Source: Longimicrobiales bacterium (lineage in GTDB: Bacteria; Gemmatimonadota; Gemmatimonadetes; Longimicrobiales; Gaopeijiaceae). Taken from it: DNA of 64,000 nt. The translations under genes and the position numbers were made by a program. Below, one piece after another: positions 7,364-55,096 of the stretch. The stretch's first letter is position 1. Each line of letters begins with the position of its first letter. The stretch spans positions 4,012,001 through 4,076,000 of the forward strand of contig OX639991.1 of the NCBI GenBank assembly GCA_951828585.1, read 5' to 3'. Below the pieces are notes generated by a model. The model was not told the DNA's origin. It worked only from the letters and a program-made list of their open reading frames with translations, and did not search any database.

Positions 7364-8503
7364 ATGTGGACTCAAGACTTTCTTCGCGGACCCGTGTCAT
7401 CGTTGTTGGCGATGATCGTGGTATTGGTATGGACTGCAGGGTGTGAACGGGCCATGGGACCCGAGCCGATCGGGGTGTGCGAGCGAACGCCGGAGGTTCG
7501 GGATGCAATCCTCCAGGAGGTCTATGGTGTAACCCGGTGCGAGGACATCACGGCAGAGGACCTGGCCCGCATCAGTACTCTTGGCGTGTTTGATCTCACT
7601 GAGCTTCGTGAGGGGGATTTCGCCGGAATGACCTGGTTGACGCACCTGATTATCGTCGACAGTCGGTTCACGTCGCTGCCGGAGGGTGTGTTTGCGGGGC
7701 TCACCATCCTCCGCGAATTGAACTTGTCCGAAAACCAATTGGCGTCGCTGCCGGAGGGGGTATTCTCCGGGCTCGCCAACCTGGAATGGTTGCGGCTGAC
7801 AGCCAATCGGTTGACGTCGCTGCCGGAGGGTATGTTTGCGGATCTCACCAACCTCCGCGAATTGCACTTGTCCGGAAATGAACTGGCGTCGCTGGCCGAG
7901 GGGGTATTCTCGGGGCTCACAAACCTGGAACAGGCGAGCCTGCGCCGGAATCGCCTGGCCTCGCTGCCGGAAGGGGTGTTCTCGGGGCTTTCGAACCTGA
8001 TGTACCTGGATTTGACGGACAACCGGTTGGCGTCTCTGCCGGACGGGGTGTTCTCGGGGGGGCTGACGAGCCTGATGTCCCTGAGTTTGGACGAAAACCG
8101 GTTGGCGTCCCTGCCGGAGGGGGTGTTCGCGGGGCTGTCGAGCCTGCTATACCTGAATCTGGGCGCCAATCCGGGGGCACCCTTCGAACTCCCGCTCCGG
8201 TTCGAGCGGACCGACGCTGCCGACACCGCGGGTTCCCCCGCTTCGGTGCGGTTGGTCCTCGCCCGGGGAGCACCATTCAACATGGCGGTCCCGTTGGCGA
8301 TACAGGGTGGCACGGCGTCGTCGGCTTCGGCCCTGTTGTCGACGGGGAGCATCGTAGGCCGGGTGTTTACGGTGACACAGGCGTCGCCCGGACAGTCAAC
8401 ACGGGTCCAGGCGAGTGGGATCCCCACCATTCCGGAGGAGATACGGGGCATAGTGCTCCTGGCTCCGGAGGACATTGTTCTGTTCTCGAGTGGCGGGGAC
8501 TGA
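7364..8503 (+). CDS. Leucine-rich repeat lipoprotein
   Basis: About 379 residues from ATG 7364. The N-terminal helix ends in VWTAGC, a lipobox, so it should be surface- or periplasm-anchored. After a short linker (ERTPEVRDAILQEVYGVTRC) there are seven leucine-rich repeats of 24 residues built on LxSLPEGVFSGLTNLxxLxL, covering roughly residues 100-270. The last 100 residues form a separate beta-rich domain (GRVFTVTQASPG near the end). The asparagine ladder (NQLASL, NRLTSL, NELASL) is intact. LRRs of this form usually bind proteins; the partner is unknown. A longer start at 7292 is open but lacks a signal. It stands alone between the lipid kinase and selC. Confidence 0.85.
   Translation: MWTQDFLRGPVSSLLAMIVVLVWTAGCERAMGPEPIGVCERTPEVRDAILQEVYGVTRCEDITAEDLARISTLGVFDLTELREGDFAGMTWLTHLIIVDSRFTSLPEGVFAGLTILRELNLSENQLASLPEGVFSGLANLEWLRLTANRLTSLPEGMFADLTNLRELHLSGNELASLAEGVFSGLTNLEQASLRRNRLASLPEGVFSGLSNLMYLDLTDNRLASLPDGVFSGGLTSLMSLSLDENRLASLPEGVFAGLSSLLYLNLGANPGAPFELPLRFERTDAADTAGSPASVRLVLARGAPFNMAVPLAIQGGTASSASALLSTGSIVGRVFTVTQASPGQSTRVQASGIPTIPEEIRGIVLLAPEDIVLFSSGGD
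7671..8177 (+). repeat. Seven-unit 72-base tandem array inside the LRR gene
   Basis: The block CGTCGCTGCC or a close variant recurs at 7671, 7743, 7815, 7887, 7959, 8031 and 8106. The spacing is 72 bases five times and then 75, the extra codon giving a doubled glycine. Units are similar enough at the DNA level for unequal recombination to add or remove whole repeats without breaking the frame. Confidence 0.85.
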
Positions 8504-8678: not shown

Positions 8679-10172
8679 TCACCCCCTCTCGGCACCCTCC
8701 GGCACCGACAGGTTGCCATCATCCCGCGAAGACGGCAACTCCCCTTCCTCCCAACGCTTCTCCAGACGCCGGAAGTTACCGGCCAGGTCCGCGCGCATCC
8801 GGGCGAAGTCCCTCCGCAGGTCGGGTCGGGCCTGCAGCTTGAAGAACAGAACGGTGTCCTCTCGCACTTCCCGGGCCAGCTCGACCCACAGCAGGGCCGC
8901 GTACCCGCACAGAGGAGCCAGCACCGCGGCCACCACCGCAGCCGGGGTCCCGCCAAACACGTACCCCAGCATCGCCCACAACACCCACGCCGCCACCACC
9001 CCCCCCAGGAGCGCCACAAGCTTGTACGTGGCCGTCACCTCGACATCGGGACGGGTACGCACCACGACCAGGCCGGCAAGCCACAATACGGGGGTCCACA
9101 ACAGGGTCCCCGCCACGGCCAGGGGAAGTCCAAGCAACAGCAGGGTTCCCCGCACCAGGATGTACCGCGCGACGGGCACGAGGCCGAAACGGGGCGGAAC
9201 CCCCCCCTCCCCCGCTCCCACCCGCGCATTCATGGCGGCATATCGTGCCACCTTGCGCTTCAGCTCCCGGTGCTCCTCGGGCGCCTCGCGCCGAATCCAC
9301 TCGAGCCCCGCGGCGAAGCGCCGCACGCGCGGGAAGCGCGCACCCATCTCCTCCCTGGCCCGCCACGGCACCCAGCGCGACTCGCGCACGTACAGCTGCT
9401 CCGCCACCTCCACCAGCTCGCGGTCCTCGTGGTGGACGAAGTTGAGGGTCTGTGCACGGATTCCCGCCTCGATACGCTCGGTGAGCTCCCGCGCGGCCGC
9501 CACCGGATCCTCCCGGTAGGCGTGCTCGAGGTCGGCGCATCCGAAGGCACGGCCGAAGCGCACGGCCACCCCCGTTCGGGCCCGCTCCTTGCGCGAGTAC
9601 GTGATCCCCACCGGCACGATCGAGAGCCCCAGCCCCCACCCCACCCCATCCTCCGCCTGTAGCGCGATGCGGGCGGCCCCGGTGCGAAACTCGGCCAGCT
9701 GCGCCTCCGAATGACTCTTTCCCTCAGGATAGATCTGAATCGCGCCGCCCCCGTGCAGCACGGCTACCGCATCCCGGAACATGTCCTCGTTGCGGTGCAT
9801 GGCCGCGGGGTCGTCCTGCCTGCGGTACACGGGAATCCCCCCGATCGCCCGCAGCACCGGACCCAGTAGGAGCCGGTCGAAGAGAGGCGCCCGCCCCAGC
9901 GGACGGGGCATGCGCTCGCTGCAACGGAAGATGAGGACCGGATCAAGAAGGCTGTTCGGGTGGTTGGCGGCGACCAGCAGCGGCCCCCGGGGCAAGGGTG
10001 GGCCGTGACGATCCACGCGGTAGAAGATCCCCGCGGCGGTACCCACGACACGGGCGATCAGCTTCGCGATCCGTCTCGGCGAGTCAGCCCCAGGAAGACC
10101 CCTCCCGGCATTCGAGCGGCGAGGCGTCCGCACTGGATCGCTTCGCCCCACCTGCTTGCGATGTAAAGGCAA
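8679..10172 (-). CDS. PlsC-like 1-acylglycerol-3-phosphate acyltransferase with C-terminal membrane region
   Basis: Up to 497 residues. The PlsC motifs are complete: AANHPNSLLDP (the H-x4-D-like box, here NHPNSLLD) near residue 69, then GGIPVYRRQD, IQIYPEGKSH near 149 (EGxS box) and IVPVGITYS. The family acylates lysophosphatidate or related glycerolipids at the inner membrane. The C-terminal third has several hydrophobic segments (ILVRGTLLLLGLPLAVAGTL, LVALLGGVVAAWVLWAMLGY), then a charged tail. The start is uncertain: TTG 10172 or the in-frame GTGs at 10151 and 10133 all lie inside a diverged copy of the interspersed repeat, so the first 25-30 codons appear to derive from that repeat. Function is clear; start is not. 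Confidence 0.82.
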   Translation of the reverse strand: MPLHRKQVGRSDPVRTPRRSNAGRGLPGADSPRRIAKLIARVVGTAAGIFYRVDRHGPPLPRGPLLVAANHPNSLLDPVLIFRCSERMPRPLGRAPLFDRLLLGPVLRAIGGIPVYRRQDDPAAMHRNEDMFRDAVAVLHGGGAIQIYPEGKSHSEAQLAEFRTGAARIALQAEDGVGWGLGLSIVPVGITYSRKERARTGVAVRFGRAFGCADLEHAYREDPVAAARELTERIEAGIRAQTLNFVHHEDRELVEVAEQLYVRESRWVPWRAREEMGARFPRVRRFAAGLEWIRREAPEEHRELKRKVARYAAMNARVGAGEGGVPPRFGLVPVARYILVRGTLLLLGLPLAVAGTLLWTPVLWLAGLVVVRTRPDVEVTATYKLVALLGGVVAAWVLWAMLGYVFGGTPAAVVAAVLAPLCGYAALLWVELAREVREDTVLFFKLQARPDLRRDFARMRADLAGNFRRLEKRWEEGELPSSRDDGNLSVPEGAERG

Positions 10173-10240
10173 GATTACATTATGTCATGTTTAGTATACA
10201 TTTCGCCACTCCAAGGCCTCGCTCTGCGTTGTTCCTCCTT
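10084..10240 (-). repeat. Diverged, truncated copy (C) of the TAGCAG interspersed repeat
   Basis: On the minus strand this stretch carries, in order, the blocks AACGCAGAGCGAGGCCTTGG, ATGTATACT, GACATAATGTAAT, AGGTGGGGCGAAGCG and CCGCTCGAATGCCGGGAGG, all of which recur in the same order at 38670-38808 and 52790-52918. The left 90 bases of the element are missing or unrecognisable and the right end is degraded to GGGGCTGA. It spans the 5' end of the acyltransferase gene. Confidence 0.82.
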
Positions 10241-10311
10241 CGATTTTCGGATCCAGAACGATTATCTTCCGCGTTCTCCCCACCACAACCTCGCCAACTC
10301 CACAGTATAGC

Positions 10312-38124: not shown

Positions 38125-38577
38125 ATGCACCTTCGCGAGTTCTTCACACCGGCAGGAGTCGGCCTCCACCTGGAGGGAGACTCGCGGAACGAGGTCCTGG
38201 ATGCGCTGATCTCGCTCCTGGAACTGGACGATCGTTCACGTGCCGTGCTCTTGCGCACGCTGCGCCGACGGGAGAATCTCGGCTCGACGGGCATCGGCCG
38301 GGGGATCGCGATCCCTCATTGCCGTTCGCTCGTAGTGACGCGTCTGCACATGGCGTATGGCCGGCATCCGGGCGGTGTGGACTTCCGCTCCATCGACAAC
38401 CGTCCCGCGCGCCACTTCTTCCTGATCGTGGCGCCGCCACTGGAGGTCTCCGGCCAGTACCTGCCGGTGCTGGGCAAGGTCGCGCAGTTCGCAAAGGAAC
38501 CGGATGTGCCGGGCAAACTAGCCGCGTTGGAGTCTTCCGGGGAGTTCTTCGAACTGCTTGACTCGAAGGGGGTTTAG
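38125..38577 (+). CDS. PTS EIIA (fructose/PtsN-type) domain protein
   Basis: A 150-residue single-domain protein from ATG 38125. It has the EIIA-Fru/PtsN pattern MHLREFFTPAGVGLHLEGDS, STGIGRGIAIPHCRSLVVTR with the phosphorylatable histidine of IPHC, and YLPVLGKVAQFAKEPDVPGK. It should accept phosphate from HPr. With ptsI, ptsH and hprK at 45-48 kb and no sugar permease in the window, it is probably part of a regulatory, PTSNtr-like chain. Its TAG stop is the first three bases of the repeat element at 38575. The upstream open frame is a shadow of dus. Confidence 0.85.
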   Translation: MHLREFFTPAGVGLHLEGDSRNEVLDALISLLELDDRSRAVLLRTLRRRENLGSTGIGRGIAIPHCRSLVVTRLHMAYGRHPGGVDFRSIDNRPARHFFLIVAPPLEVSGQYLPVLGKVAQFAKEPDVPGKLAALESSGEFFELLDSKGV

Positions 38578-38825
38578 CAGTCCGTGGATCAAGCCGCCCG
38601 AGCCACCGAGAGCGGAGAGGCGCCGGGCTGGCAAGGCGCGACGAGAGATGAATGGCAGGGCTATTCGCCCGAGGAGCAACGCAGAGCGTAGCTTTGGAAC
38701 CGCCGGATGTATACTCTAGTTGACATAATGTAATGTTCTCTTTACGTCGTGACGAGGTGGGGCGAAGCGGCCAGCGCGGATGCATCGCCGCTCGAATGCC
38801 GGGAGGATCTTGTCCACGGGCTGCT
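38575..38825 (+). mobile_element. MITE-like interspersed repeat, copy A (TIRs TAGCAGYCCGTGGAC)
   Basis: A 251-base element bounded by imperfect inverted repeats: left TAGCAGTCCGTGGATCAAG, right CTTGTCCACGGGCTGCT. It shares nearly every block with copy B at 52690-52940: GGCGCCGGGCTGGCAAGGCG, CTATTCGCCCGAGGAGCAAC, TTGACATAATGTAATG, TTTACGTCGTGA and GATGCATCGCCGCTCGAATG. It encodes no transposase and holds only a tiny open frame (from ATG 38733, beginning MFSLRR) that runs past its end. The left TAG is the stop of the EIIA gene. The right end is followed by a partial second right end. It is best described as a non-autonomous, MITE-type element; the parent IS is unknown. Confidence 0.85.
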
Positions 38826-38873
38826 GTAGCAGGGCCGCTCGAACGCCGGGGGGATCTTGTCCGCGGGCTGTTA
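38826..38873 (+). repeat. Tandem partial duplicate of the element's right end
   Basis: GCCGCTCGAACGCCGGGGGG at 38834 and the bases up to GGGCTGTTA repeat the last 39 bases of copy A (38787-38825) with four differences, 47 bases apart. It suggests that two insertions, or a slip during transposition, left a second right end. It lies two bases from the stop of the sorting-domain gene. Confidence 0.8.
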
Positions 38874-38875
38874 GC

Positions 38876-39319
38876 CTACCTGCCGACGAACATCCTCAAC
38901 GGCGACGCCCGGCCGCGACCCTCGATCCGCATCTGAACGAAATAGACGCCGGAAGCCACCGGCTTGTCGTTGCGGTCCCGGCCGTTCCAGAAGGCTTCGT
39001 AGCGACCGGGTCGGCTGTATTCGAGTTGGAGGAGCGGCAGTCTGTCGCCACCGGGGTAACGCAGCGCCACGGGAGCGGCTACGAACTGCTGCAGGATGTT
39101 GTAGACGCGCAAGGACACCGTGACCGTATTCCCCTCTTCAAACAGCGTCTCCTCGAGCACGAACGGAATCCTTGTCTCGGAACTGAAGGGATTCGGGTAG
39201 TTCTGTTCCAGCCGGAAGTCAGGGTCCTTTTCGCCAACGGGCGGAGGACGCTCCTGGGCGGCTATAGCGGTAAAGCCACCGGAACAGAGTAGAAACATGA
39301 CGCAGAGAATGCGCCTCAC
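38876..39319 (-). CDS. Orphan exported FlgD/T9SS-type C-terminal domain protein
   Basis: A 147-residue protein from GTG 39319, with AGGATAA upstream. A signal peptide (LCVMFLLCSGGFTAIAAQ) is followed directly by FRLEQNYPNPFSSETRIPFV, LRVYNILQQFVAAPVAL, then YEAFWNGRDRNDKPVASGVY and FVQMRI. This is the Por secretion (type A) sorting or FlgD Ig-like fold, normally found at the C-terminus of large secreted proteins. Here there is no cargo domain. It may be a small matrix or anchor protein, or what remains of a bigger gene. A sigma-70-type promoter lies about 95 bases upstream. Confidence 0.75.
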   Translation of the reverse strand: MRRILCVMFLLCSGGFTAIAAQERPPPVGEKDPDFRLEQNYPNPFSSETRIPFVLEETLFEEGNTVTVSLRVYNILQQFVAAPVALRYPGGDRLPLLQLEYSRPGRYEAFWNGRDRNDKPVASGVYFVQMRIEGRGRASPLRMFVGR

Positions 39320-50874: not shown

Positions 50875-52067
50875 TCCTCTTCCTCCCTTTCCGCCCGGGC
50901 GACGGCACCGCAGCCCGCCGCCACCACATCCCCGTTGTCGATTCGTACCCCGTTGAAGGGCACTCGGCCCACCACCTGCAGGGCATAGCCGTCAAGCCCG
51001 ACAATACGCCGCCTGCTGTTGGTCAGCAACCTGATCGAGGTCAGTCCCAGGTCGAGGAGGATCTGCGCTCCGACTCCGTAGTCGCGCAACACCTGCCGCG
51101 GAGCCGGGAGATCCTGTTCCGGCACCGGACTCCCCCCGAACCGGCGCAGACGCTCGATCAGCCGGTCCCCGGCCCGGTCGCGATGAATGTAGACGACCAC
51201 CCCGTCCCCCTCCCTCCGGATACGCTGCATGGCTCCCGCGAGCAGATTGCCCTGCCGCTCGTCCAGCGAATCGAAGGTCTCGGCCAGGGGGTTCTCGGCG
51301 TGCATTCGTACCAGCACGTCCTCCTTCCCCTCGACATTGCCGTTGACCAGCGCGATGTGGACGCGATCGTCAATGTCGGTCCGGTAGCCGATGAAGAGAA
51401 ACTCGCCCCAGGCCGTGCGCAGCGTCGTCTCCACGACCCGCCTCACCAGCCGTTCCCGCGCCAGCCGATACGCCACCAACTGCTCGACCGTGATGAACCT
51501 GAGGTCGTGTTGTCTGGCCATGACCTCGAGTTCGTCCCGGCGGGCCATCGTCCCGTCCTCGTTGAGGATTTCGCAGATCACGCCGGTGGGCGCCAGTCCC
51601 GCAAGGCGGGCCAGATCGACGGCGGCTTCGGTCTGGCCGACGCGGCGCAGCACTCCCCCTCGGCGGGCCCGCAGCGGGAAGATGTGCCCGGGCCGCCGGA
51701 GGTGGTCGGGAGTGGAACCCGGGTCGGCCAGCACCTGCACCGTCTTCGCGCGGTCGTGGGCGGAGATCCCCGTCGTGACACCGAAGCGGCGGTGGGCGTC
51801 CACTGAAATGGTGAACGCGGTTCCCTGCGGGTCGGTGCTCCGTTCGGTCATGAGCGGGAGATCCAGGGCGTCGGCGCGCTCCGCGGTCATGGAGACGCAG
51901 ATGAGTCCCCGCCCGAACTTGGTCATGAAGTTCACCAGCTCGGGGGTAATCTTCTCGGCCGCGCAGACCAGGTCGCCCTCGTTCTCGCGGTCCTCGTCGT
52001 CGGCGACGATCACGAGCCTGCCTGCGGCGATGTCGCGAATCGCGGCGTGAACGGAGTCAAGGGGCAT
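50871..52067 (-). CDS. ribB: RibB fused to a degenerate GTP cyclohydrolase II domain (RibBX type)
   Basis: A 398-residue protein. Residues 1-205 are a complete 3,4-dihydroxy-2-butanone-4-phosphate synthase: IVADDEDRENEGDLVCAAEK, RGLICVSMTAERADALDLPL, VDAHRRFGVTTGISAHDRAK and RPGHIFPLRARRGGVLRRVG. Residues 215-398 have the RibA fold (TAWGEFLFIGYRTDIDDRVH) but the zinc-binding cysteines are absent: where RibA reads HSECLTGDVFGSLRCDCG there is VRMHAENPLAETFDSLDERQ. The catalytic YLRQEGRGIG region reads VYIHRDRAGDRL. So it can make DHBP but probably not open GTP. This matches the hybrid form described as ribBX. A separate ribA is expected elsewhere. Confidence 0.9.
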   Translation of the reverse strand: MPLDSVHAAIRDIAAGRLVIVADDEDRENEGDLVCAAEKITPELVNFMTKFGRGLICVSMTAERADALDLPLMTERSTDPQGTAFTISVDAHRRFGVTTGISAHDRAKTVQVLADPGSTPDHLRRPGHIFPLRARRGGVLRRVGQTEAAVDLARLAGLAPTGVICEILNEDGTMARRDELEVMARQHDLRFITVEQLVAYRLARERLVRRVVETTLRTAWGEFLFIGYRTDIDDRVHIALVNGNVEGKEDVLVRMHAENPLAETFDSLDERQGNLLAGAMQRIRREGDGVVVYIHRDRAGDRLIERLRRFGGSPVPEQDLPAPRQVLRDYGVGAQILLDLGLTSIRLLTNSRRRIVGLDGYALQVVGRVPFNGVRIDNGDVVAAGCGAVARAEREEEE

Positions 52068-52686
52068 GGGTGCGGCCGTCTTTCCCGGGAAGCGAGCCTC
52101 CGGTTTCCATGATGCGCCTGATGTATCTGCCGATGAGGTCCGCCTCCACGTTGACCGGATCGCCGGGCTCCAGGGCGAAGAAGCCGGTGTGCTCCCAGGT
52201 ATGGGGGATGATGGCCACCTCGCAGCGCGCGTCCCCGCGAAGGGCGTTCACGGTGAGGCTGACGCCGTTGAGGGCGATGGAACCGTGCGGAATGGTGGTG
52301 GCAAGGACATTTGCGGGCAATGCGAACTCGAGGAACCTCGTTTCACCCTGGATTCGCCCTTCCAGAAGCGTGGCCAGACCGTCCACGTGGCCCTGCACCA
52401 GGTGTCCGTCGAGCCGGCCGCCCACCTTCACCGCGCGTTCCAGGTTGACCGCCGCGCCGGCATCGTACCGGGCCGCCACGGTTCGCTCGAGGGTGGACGC
52501 GCCCACCTGTACGGCAAAGGTGCCGCCGGAGAGGGCGCGAACGGTCAGACAGGCCCCGTCCACAGCAACGGACTGCCCCGCGGCCAGCTCTCCGGCAAAG
52601 GGGGCGGCGATCGCAAGGGTGCGGCCGCTATCCTCCTCGGCAACCGTCACGACCTCGCCCACGCACTCGATGATCCCGGTAAACAA
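52057..52686 (-). CDS. ribE: Riboflavin synthase
   Basis: A 209-residue protein of two similar lumazine-binding halves. It starts at TTG 52686, giving the family-typical LFTGIIECVGEV; that codon is only three bases from the end of the repeat element, so its ribosome-binding site lies within the element. Motifs: AVDGACLTVRALSGGTFAVQ, RLDGHLVQGHVDGLATLLEG, then the second-half SIALNGVSLTVNALRGDARC and IPHTWEHTGFFALEPGDPVN. It dismutates lumazine to riboflavin. The stop overlaps the ribBX start by 11 bases. Confidence 0.92.
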   Translation of the reverse strand: MFTGIIECVGEVVTVAEEDSGRTLAIAAPFAGELAAGQSVAVDGACLTVRALSGGTFAVQVGASTLERTVAARYDAGAAVNLERAVKVGGRLDGHLVQGHVDGLATLLEGRIQGETRFLEFALPANVLATTIPHGSIALNGVSLTVNALRGDARCEVAIIPHTWEHTGFFALEPGDPVNVEADLIGRYIRRIMETGGSLPGKDGRTHAP

Positions 52687-52689
52687 TTC

Positions 52690-52940
52690 TAGCAGTCCGT
52701 GGACAAGGCCGCCCGAGCACCGAGAGCGGTGAGGCGCCGGGCTGGCAAGGCGCGACGAGAGGTGAATAGCAGGGCTATTCGCCCGAGGAGCAACGCAGAG
52801 CGAAGCCTTGGAGCTATCGAATGTACGCTGTGGTTGACAATATGTAATGTTTTCCTTACGTCGTGAACCGGTGAAGCGAAGCGCCCAGCCCGGATGCATC
52901 GCCGCTCGAATGCCGGGGGGATTTTTTCCACGGGCTGCTA
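52690..52940 (+). mobile_element. MITE-like interspersed repeat, copy B, inside the rib operon
   Basis: A 251-base element bounded by TAGCAGTCCGTGGACAAGG on the left and TTTTTTCCACGGGCTGCTA on the right, and matching copy A block by block over its full length. It lies between ribD and ribE in the orientation opposite to the operon. The right-end TAG, read on the minus strand, is the stop codon of ribD, and the left end falls three bases before the ribE start. It has no transposase. Internal features include GGGCTATTCGCCC (hairpin) and TTGACAATATGTAATG. The tiny open frame starting MFSLRRE at 52847 matches the one in copy A. Confidence 0.87.
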
Positions 52941-54089
52941 ACCCCCGCGATCCAGAACGATCAGCGTGTCGTCCCCGAATCTCACCGGGTCGAGCCGCGA
53001 CTGCCACCCCTTCAGGAGGGCCGCGACATCTTCGGGCCGGTCTCCCGGAGCGACCGGAAAGGCCCGTACCCCACCCCACCCCACCACCACCGGCGCCACG
53101 AACAGGTAGAGCCGGTCGACCAGACCATCCGCCAGCAGCGATGCCGCCAGCACGCCCCCCCCCTCGCAGAAAACGCTTCCGACACCCCGCCCGGCCAGCG
53201 CCTCCATAAGGGCCGCCAGCTCAAGCCCCCGCACCCCTGCCGGCACGGCCACCACCTCCCCCCGCCGTCCCAACCGCTCCTCCACCCGCCCCACCGCCTC
53301 AGGCCCAGTTACCACAATCGCCCGCACCCCCCCGTCGCCCCGCAGCGCGCGCAGGTCCCGGGCCACCTCTCCACGCCGGTCCAGCAACACCGGCCTCGGG
53401 GGAACGCGAGGGGTCACCGCTCCCCGCGCGTTCAGCATCGGGTCGTCGGCCTTCCAAGTGCGTGTACCCACCATGATCGCGTCGAACCCCGCGCGCAGAC
53501 GGTGCACCTCCGACCGCGCCTCCCGGCCCGTCAGCCACACCCGCCTGCCCCCGCCCGGCGCGATGCACCCATCCAGACTCACGGCCAGCTTCAGGGCCAC
53601 ATACGGTCTCGTGCTCGCCGCGGCGTGGAAGAACACGGGGTTCTCCGCGGCCCACTCGCTCGCCTCCCCGCAGGGACCCGCGACCCGCACCCCCCGCCTC
53701 CGCAGCCACTCCCCCCCACCCCCCTCCGCCGCACCCGGCTCGGCTGCCCGGTAGACCACGCGCTCGATCCCCGCCGCGTGGATGGCCTCCGTGCAAGGCG
53801 GCGTCTTCCCCCTATGCGCGCACGGCTCCAGGCTGCTGTAGAGGGTGGCGCCGCGGGCGCGTTCCCCCAGCTCTGCCAGCGCGGCCGCCTCGGCGTGCGG
53901 CCCGCCGAACTCCGCGTGGTGCGCCTCGGCCAGCGTCACCCCGCCGCGGGCCACCACCGCGCCCACCATCGGGTTGGGGTGCACCCGTCCCCAGCCCTTC
54001 CGTCCGAGTTCGACGGCACGGGCAAGGAAGGCGCGGTCGCCGGTGGCGAGGCCGTCGCCGCCGGGTGCGCCGCGGAGAGGCGCGCTCAC
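52938..54089 (-). CDS. ribD: Bifunctional pyrimidine deaminase/reductase RibD
   Basis: About 383 residues from GTG 54089, which overlaps the upstream gene's stop as GTGA. The deaminase domain (to 145) has HPNPMVGAVVARGGVTLAEA, FGGPHAEAAALAELGERARG with the zinc HAE, and LYSSLEPCAHRGKTPPCTEA with the PCxxxGxxPPC zinc cysteines. The reductase domain has VALKLAVSLDGCIAPGGGRR, LRAGFDAIMVGTRTWKADDP and FCEGGGVLAASLLADGLVDR. It carries out two early riboflavin steps. The stop TAG belongs to the adjoining repeat element, so the native C-terminus may have been altered. Confidence 0.94.
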   Translation of the reverse strand: MSAPLRGAPGGDGLATGDRAFLARAVELGRKGWGRVHPNPMVGAVVARGGVTLAEAHHAEFGGPHAEAAALAELGERARGATLYSSLEPCAHRGKTPPCTEAIHAAGIERVVYRAAEPGAAEGGGGEWLRRRGVRVAGPCGEASEWAAENPVFFHAAASTRPYVALKLAVSLDGCIAPGGGRRVWLTGREARSEVHRLRAGFDAIMVGTRTWKADDPMLNARGAVTPRVPPRPVLLDRRGEVARDLRALRGDGGVRAIVVTGPEAVGRVEERLGRRGEVVAVPAGVRGLELAALMEALAGRGVGSVFCEGGGVLAASLLADGLVDRLYLFVAPVVVGWGGVRAFPVAPGDRPEDVAALLKGWQSRLDPVRFGDDTLIVLDRGG

Positions 54090-55096
54090 GGGGTGATCCG
54101 CACCGCCAGGGAGGCGAACCAGCTCCGCGCGGCGGGGTCGTAGCGGCCGCTCCGCCCCTCGAACGGATCGCTCACGCCGTCCGCCACCCCGGCCTCGAGC
54201 GAAAGCTGCGAGATCAGGAAGTTGTACCACGCGGACACGAAGTAGACCGTCCGCTCGCTGGCGAGCCGGCCCGTGACCGCGCCCGGATCCTCCACGCCCC
54301 CCGTCGCCGACACGGTGGCCTCTCCCTCGTAGCGGTCCCATCCCGCGCCCGCCATCAGTCCCACCACGAACCAGTTCTTCCCCAGCATGGCCCGAAGCGA
54401 CGTGACCTCGAAATCGGTCTCCATCTCGCCCGGGTTGCCTTCACCGAAGTCACCCGTCTTCGCGGTCTCGTGCCAGCGCCGCGCGACCGAGACGGAGAGG
54501 CCCGGCATGGTGAACGACTCTCGCAGGATCCCCACCCGCGCTCCCAGCCCCACCCCCGACGACGCACCGCCGAAGCCCTCTCCCTCCGGCAGCCAGAGCC
54601 GGGTATACGATGCAACCAGGTCGGCCGAGAGGATCCCGCCAATGCCCGGCGCCATTTGGAAACCGTCCAGAAGGCCCGCCGACACCACCCCCCGCAGACC
54701 GACCACGGTGGGTTCCACCTCTTCCGCGAGATCCTCGACCGAGCGGGCCGAGACCCGTGGCATCCCCATCCCAATTCCCGTCGCTGCAAGGGCGAATCCC
54801 AGTCGCGGGACGCTGCCCAGACGACGTCCGGCCGTGCTGGACGTCCCCGGAACGTCGCTGCCCAGCGCCGAAGCCAGCCCCACCCCCCGCTGCACCGCCA
54901 TCGCCGCCAGCACCAGCTCCCGGCACGTCGATGTCCGGTCCGAGCTGCCGGCCGCGCAGAGCATGGCCAGCTCGATCACCCCCTCGACCCCGGTCCGCCC
55001 GCGCGGCAGCTCCTGCGCGGAGACGGAAACGGACCACGCGCCCGCCAGCGCCGCCAGCACGGCCGCGATTCCCCTGCACCGCCTGTCAGCCTTCAA
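54086..55096 (-). CDS. Exported outer-membrane-type protein, unknown function
   Basis: A 336-residue protein from TTG 55096. A signal peptide (GIAAVLAALAGAWSVSVSAQ) precedes sequence rich in amphipathic strands: GIGGILSADLVASYTRLWLP, GVGLGARVGILRESFTMPGL, LSVSVARRWHETAKTGDFGE, and the end SWFASLAVRITP. It looks like a beta-barrel. I do not recognise the family. It is the gene before ribD and overlaps it by four bases, though a functional link to riboflavin is not evident. It starts four bases after the purM stop. Confidence 0.68.
   Translation of the reverse strand: MKADRRCRGIAAVLAALAGAWSVSVSAQELPRGRTGVEGVIELAMLCAAGSSDRTSTCRELVLAAMAVQRGVGLASALGSDVPGTSSTAGRRLGSVPRLGFALAATGIGMGMPRVSARSVEDLAEEVEPTVVGLRGVVSAGLLDGFQMAPGIGGILSADLVASYTRLWLPEGEGFGGASSGVGLGARVGILRESFTMPGLSVSVARRWHETAKTGDFGEGNPGEMETDFEVTSLRAMLGKNWFVVGLMAGAGWDRYEGEATVSATGGVEDPGAVTGRLASERTVYFVSAWYNFLISQLSLEAGVADGVSDPFEGRSGRYDPAARSWFASLAVRITP

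Follow-up and report, generated by a model that had tools for sequence, protein, structure and literature searches.

A MITE at the stop codons of upstream genes in a Longimicrobiales genome and the C-TA-G-like sites it occupies

In Streptococcus pneumoniae, the end of a BOX repeat encodes the stop codon of 36 genes, without strong evidence that truncated proteins result (PMC3049150). Mycobacterial interspersed repetitive units (MIRU) insert at gene junctions and hardly disturb coding (PMC12548453). For RUP, IS630-Spn1 is the presumed mover, acting through an IS630-type transposase (PMC2229807), and QMITE2 of Coxiella burnetii, which lies mainly in 3' untranslated and intergenic regions, receives an IS1111-type element at a fixed site (PMC5896051). 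BOX and MIRU are the precedents that we found in the open-access literature on repeats in stop codons.

Here we describe a MITE from a Longimicrobiales bacterium (assembly GCA_951828585.1), two copies of which supply the last base of neighbouring genes in a stretch of 64,000 nucleotides (positions 4,012,001 to 4,076,000 of contig OX639991.1; hereafter the window). The explanation that probably holds is that the element targets C-TA-G, as IS630-type elements do, and that only translation-silent insertions survive, TAG stops making up a large share of these.

Architecture, copies and census

All intact copies share a 247-bp core, GCAG...CTGC, with ends GCAGTCCGTGGA…TCCACGGGCTGC. The repeat has the features of a MITE: it is short, present in many copies, without a transposase gene, bounded by 12-bp inverted ends and flanked by target-site duplications, with empty sites seen in relatives. 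A preliminary description let the terminal inverted repeat begin with TAG; the inverted repeat itself begins GCAG, and the TA on each side is flanking target DNA. Copies A and B of the window (Table 1) are 87% alike. Elsewhere in the window, at 7647-8171, direct repeats of 72 bp code for leucine-rich-repeat-like units.

Several variant forms accompany the full-length element. A short form of 171-174 bp is without model positions ~117-184; these positions (for example window 52808-52875) form a central, AT-richer module with palindromes such as ATGTATACTATACAT and TGTAA-N8-TTACA, and to judge from its letters the module may resemble a binding site. Mini-elements of 43-82 bp, hardly more than two inverted ends, occur in the same genome at 3740169, 3933132, 3190719, 3504923, 388696 and 2131783. 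Two to five units can also follow one another head to tail, joined by CTGC-CC-GCAG or CTGCCCAG; such tandem arrays lie at 67523-67865, 202271-202690, 207149-207893, 3738489-3739344 and 4079352-4079871.

With copy B as query, this genome (a single contig of 4.47 Mb) gives 61 matches at about 60 places, arrays and short form included, and matches are present in all 23 genomes of the genus, this one and 22 others, all from uncultured Gemmatimonadota. Our census consists of these searches, the fetched surroundings of the copies in the own genome and 80 loci from relatives. The latter are best matches by similarity, and some represent one insertion in several species, as at pstC. Genes were called by a codon-score script trained on these sequences rather than taken from curated annotation, and stops were placed relative to the element ends.

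Table 1. Features of the window that bear on the repeat and its neighbouring genes
Feature	Position	Strand	Basis or remark
MITE, third copy, degenerate and partial (model positions 86-246)	10084..10245	-	nhmmer; inverted-repeat pair
EIIA (PTS IIA-like) gene	38125..38577	+	ORF; orthologues in 21/22 related genomes
EIIA stop TAG (target TA + first G of copy A)	38575..38577	+	sequence, ORF
MITE copy A, GCAG...CTGC	38577..38824	+	full-length nhmmer match; terminal inverted repeats with 0 mismatches
Mini-element, 43 bp (extra right end beside copy A)	38829..38871	+	sequence; nhmmer; followed by TA 38872-38873
Sorting-domain gene (T9SS-like C-terminal)	38876..39319	-	ORF and gene call; stop TAG 38878-38876
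Riboflavin synthase (ribE)	52057..52686	-	gene call; start codon at 52686
Left TA of copy B (2-bp target duplication)	52690..52691	+	sequence; TA/TA flanks
MITE copy B, 247-bp core	52692..52938	+	nhmmer; terminal repeats with 0 mismatches
Right TA of copy B (target duplication)	52939..52940	+	with C 52938 forms the minus-strand TAG, the ribD stop
ribD	52938..54089 (gene call; ORF 52938-54341)	-	stop TAG 52940-52938

The preliminary description had assigned the left TAG of copy A to the stop of the EIIA gene and the right-end TAG of copy B, read on the minus strand, to the stop of ribD, and had placed the extra right end at 38873 two bases from the stop of the sorting-domain gene. Sequence and ORFs bear out the first two assignments, and the third agrees with the TA flanking the mini-element and the gene's stop at 38876-38878. 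The G of the ribD stop is the complement of the last base of copy B, and ribE starts 6 bp beyond the copy, which therefore occupies a tight operon junction, ribD-ribE. In relatives this junction is empty of the MITE.

Target site and coincidence with stop codons

The ends are near-intact in 94 copies. The 2-bp flanks on the two sides are identical in 41 of these (TA/TA in 27), and seven more have identical 3-bp flanks, mostly CTA/CTA along the element, which is TAG/TAG on the gene strand. In empty sites rebuilt from 46 copies (one duplicate removed), the duplication is TA in 32; the base ahead of it is C in 42, and the base behind it is G in 30. Across these 46 sites, no further base beyond C-TA-G is strongly conserved. 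The duplication is mostly TA and less often CA or TG, and some insertions outside stop codons have CA or TG as their target.

The non-autonomous MITE inserts at C-TA-G-like sites, duplicating 2 bp (TA, less often CA/TG) and occasionally 3 bp (CTA/TAG). The element begins with G and ends with C; when it enters a TAG stop at its TA, the element's terminal base rebuilds the TAG. The upstream protein stays unchanged because that base restores the third letter of the stop.

Stop codons are occupied far more often than expected. The own genome has 41 insertions flanked by TA on at least one side, and 22 of them lie exactly at the TA of a TAG or TAA stop (p = 1.5e-10), and the 80 loci from relatives give 27 of 57 (p = 5.7e-11), in each case against 12.1% under a null that excludes coding TA and treats all non-coding and stop TA as equally tolerable. 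Away from elements, the available sites were 91 stop-TA, 662 other non-coding TA and 2,467 coding TA. The genome-wide tabulation of terminal TAG against expectation that had been suggested beforehand thus yields a rate that is not near random. When stop offsets from the element are pooled, 49 fall at 0 and 12 at -1, and every other offset from -30 to +20 has at most five. The proposed frame-randomised comparison gives the same picture: 49 of 63 genes that read into an element end stop exactly at its terminal TAG/TAA, where one third would be expected (p = 6e-13). Under a CTA-only null, stops make up 96 of 467 tolerated sites (20.6%) and hold 20 of 32 TA/TA copies (p = 3e-7), and the excess at stops over other non-coding CTA sites is ~4-6-fold per site.

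We attribute this excess mainly to selection; it would arise from selective loss of other insertions rather than from an active choice of stops. In this GC-rich, ~91% coding genome, most TA sites lie within genes, and insertions there would be lost. TAG stops (CTA on the opposite strand) would then form a large share of the remaining sites and be the most harmless of them, because the whole downstream spacer remains joined to the next gene. Loss of genic insertions and the harmlessness of TAG stops would together leave about half of the surviving TA-flanked copies in stop codons. Against selection alone stands the size of the per-site excess that it has to produce, and the computed null represents equal tolerance only. 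The two options raised in the preliminary description, that gene ends are preferred as targets or that harmless insertions are selected, both come close. A C-TA-G target by itself makes TAG stops targets, to which purifying selection and active bias may each add.

A bias of insertion itself toward stops or intercistronic junctions, through a longer motif, a DNA structure or a state of the DNA where translation ends, is unlikely. It would fit the strong over-use of stops relative to TA sites close by (stops hold 58 insertions in 91 available sites, while the TA sites 2-40 nt downstream of stops hold 7 in 81; p = 4e-10) and the 13 of 18 TA/TA copies at non-palindromic sites that lie at stops, as well as the single pstC junction at which several species have either the element or a short relic. 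Such a bias is difficult to reconcile with a target that shows no strong conservation outside C-TA-G and with the use of CA and TG targets away from stops. It also sits poorly with the palindromic CTAG sites, where the share at stops is near availability (7 of 14 copies against 32% of sites, p = 0.12, not significant), as expected if the motif drives insertion.

The same bias would account for the over-representation of tight operon junctions, which hold 31 of 61 stop insertions against 20 of 74 genes ending in TAG or TAA (p = 0.007), a difference that is not significant in the own genome alone (10 of 27, p = 0.34). This result speaks weakly for insertion bias, and it counts against the selection-based explanation that we prefer: stop insertions are if anything commoner in tight junctions, where a spacer could hurt the next gene. 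That something beyond the C-TA-G motif actively directs insertion to stop codons at operon junctions is, in our estimate, distinctly improbable; if it were true, the transposon would in effect recognise gene ends.

The orientation and folding of the element could be taken to mean that a long hairpin behind the stop is kept since it terminates, stabilises or separates neighbouring cistrons. Copy B is predicted to fold end to end as single-stranded DNA (z -6.8), the right end of the MITE is the one next to the gene at 49 of 61 stop insertions, and insertions lie inside the str/S10 region, at tuf-rpsJ and rplC-rplD. The orientation bias follows, however, from the target, which needs C on one side, equivalent to the G of TAG on the gene strand. 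Copy B yielded no terminator-like or sigma-70-like site and the element no match in Rfam, and relatives are without the element at the same junctions, several with decayed relics, which argues that it is not maintained. We consider positive selection of this kind very unlikely. Forty stop-coincident copies have intact ends, and their flank away from the stop reads TA in 20, CA in 8 and TG in 7. This mix is consistent with a TA that is kept on the stop side while the other side drifts, but the near side is TA by definition.

Protein ends and empty sites in relatives

We compared the C-termini of seven genes (EIIA, EF-Tu, EtfB, PstC, L3, RibD and Def) with those of element-free relatives. For five of them, relatives that lack the element already have the TAG. 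Two close relatives with no insertion at this place have an EIIA that ends DSKGV-TAG, and EF-Tu ends IIE-TAG in all 20 relatives read, a TAG that the element splits in the own genome. L3 ends at TAG in two element-free relatives, and a further two have an element at that position; EtfB ends at TAG in two relatives without the element. For PstC, the stop is TAG in 13 relatives in which no element was detected, although a short relic such as GCAGCCC is present in some of these.

RibD and Def differ. The RibD C-terminus, LIVLDRGG, is the same or nearly so in element-free relatives, and close relatives end RGG followed by TGA. The stop of Def is TGA in its closest relatives, and a relative's TGATGCGGG is unchanged on the far side of the element; here the element may have inserted into the TG of TGA, with a later change to TAG. 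In both genes the stop triplet has thus changed while the protein end remained the same or nearly so. These two cases count against our preferred explanation in its simplest form, as the insertions were not simply at the TAG of the closest relatives. In one relative (locus L090 of genome G014), the C-terminus of RibD is extended by 12 residues, and sequence like the middle of the MITE comes next, at the same ribD-ribE junction.

The TGA stops of RibD and Def, together with about a dozen genes that continue into the element for a few codons, in a different frame, could suggest that the element usually shortens or lengthens genes and that its TAG is a new stop. Yet each of the seven proteins has some element-free counterparts, at least, that share its final residue or end no more than a few residues away, five of them at a TAG already there, and in-frame truncation or extension as the usual outcome is highly improbable. 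The earlier idea that an element landing in frame would end a gene cleanly needs correction: the repeat usually enters an existing stop at its TA, the terminal G takes the place of the lost third base, and a new stop is usually not supplied. The comparison proposed at that time for RibD and EIIA accordingly shows both protein ends kept, with a pre-existing TAG for EIIA and a TGA in relatives for RibD.

These observations outline a simple invasion route for gene-dense genomes: the target lies within a common, harmless word containing TA, the TAG stop, and an element that begins with G rebuilds the stop. Copies can thereby sit in conserved operons (tuf-rpsJ, rplC-rplD, pstC, ribD-ribE) without a change of protein. 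With more than 20 species, the genus is a natural data set for telling insertion preference and selection apart. Annotation of such genes should take into account that their final base is part of the repeat.

Candidate movers and comparison with described repeats

A Tc1/mariner/IS630-type (DDE-type) transposase presumably moves the MITE. DDE_3/IS630 genes occur in 7 of 23 genomes, and the IS630-type elements of the genus also begin with G and insert at C-TA-G. We rejected the resident ones as movers: the ends of the definable groups (GTGT..GTGTCCC, GTACAC, GTGTTCC) are unlike the MITE's GCAGYCCGYGGA. The MITE shares the TA duplication in C-TA-G context with IS630/Tc1-mariner-type elements; it is not filed among them because its terminal repeats differ from those of the definable resident groups. 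No resident transposase with GCAG-type ends was found, and the 23 genomes gave no match to an IS30-family transposase.

Two further candidates are better read as insertions within the MITE. A 3.6-kb inverted-end pair at 3018594-3022239 of the own genome looked like an autonomous element but has MITE model positions 138-142 on either side, as an insertion into a MITE would. The insert is ~3.4 kb long, contains a small tyrosine-recombinase-like ORF and has 5 bp of MITE on each side; the left MITE end lies at the stop of the upstream gene. Six copies (3906773, 3972218, 3355332, 2232331, 4006221 and 3507808 of the own genome) hold a ~1.4-kb IS110/IS1111-type insertion at an identical place in the left end (TAGCAGTCCGT^GTGGA), a fixed landing site. 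The IS110-type gene near these copies is thus a passenger rather than the mover. At four loci (L289, L294, L297 and L299), IS630-type elements sit in CTAG at a MITE end or directly beside its terminal repeat; MITE ends are therefore targets for other elements.

TA-ended bacterial MITEs (RUP, Correia elements) are common, and the repeat resembles them and IS630-type elements in its TA termini, target duplication and inverted ends; the resident IS630-type elements share its C-TA-G target and differ in their ends. Like QMITE2, it offers at its end a fixed landing site to IS110/IS1111-type elements; QMITE2 is flanked by 7-11-nt direct repeats of variable sequence (PMC5896051), in contrast to the TA target here. 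MIRU likewise settle at gene junctions with little effect on coding (PMC12548453). They are described as using start codons and as having an internal ORF that is coupled, at -4 nt, to the gene that follows, whereas the MITE uses the TAG of the upstream gene. BOX is similar in being a small interspersed repeat that provides, at its end, the stop codon of the preceding gene, with no clear truncation; unlike the MITE, it is modular (boxA/B/C) and belongs to another phylum, and the available part of the report gives no target-site test or expectation for stop use (PMC3049150). BOX and MIRU are precedents, and the stop-codon MITE is a strong variant of what they do, not a new mechanism.
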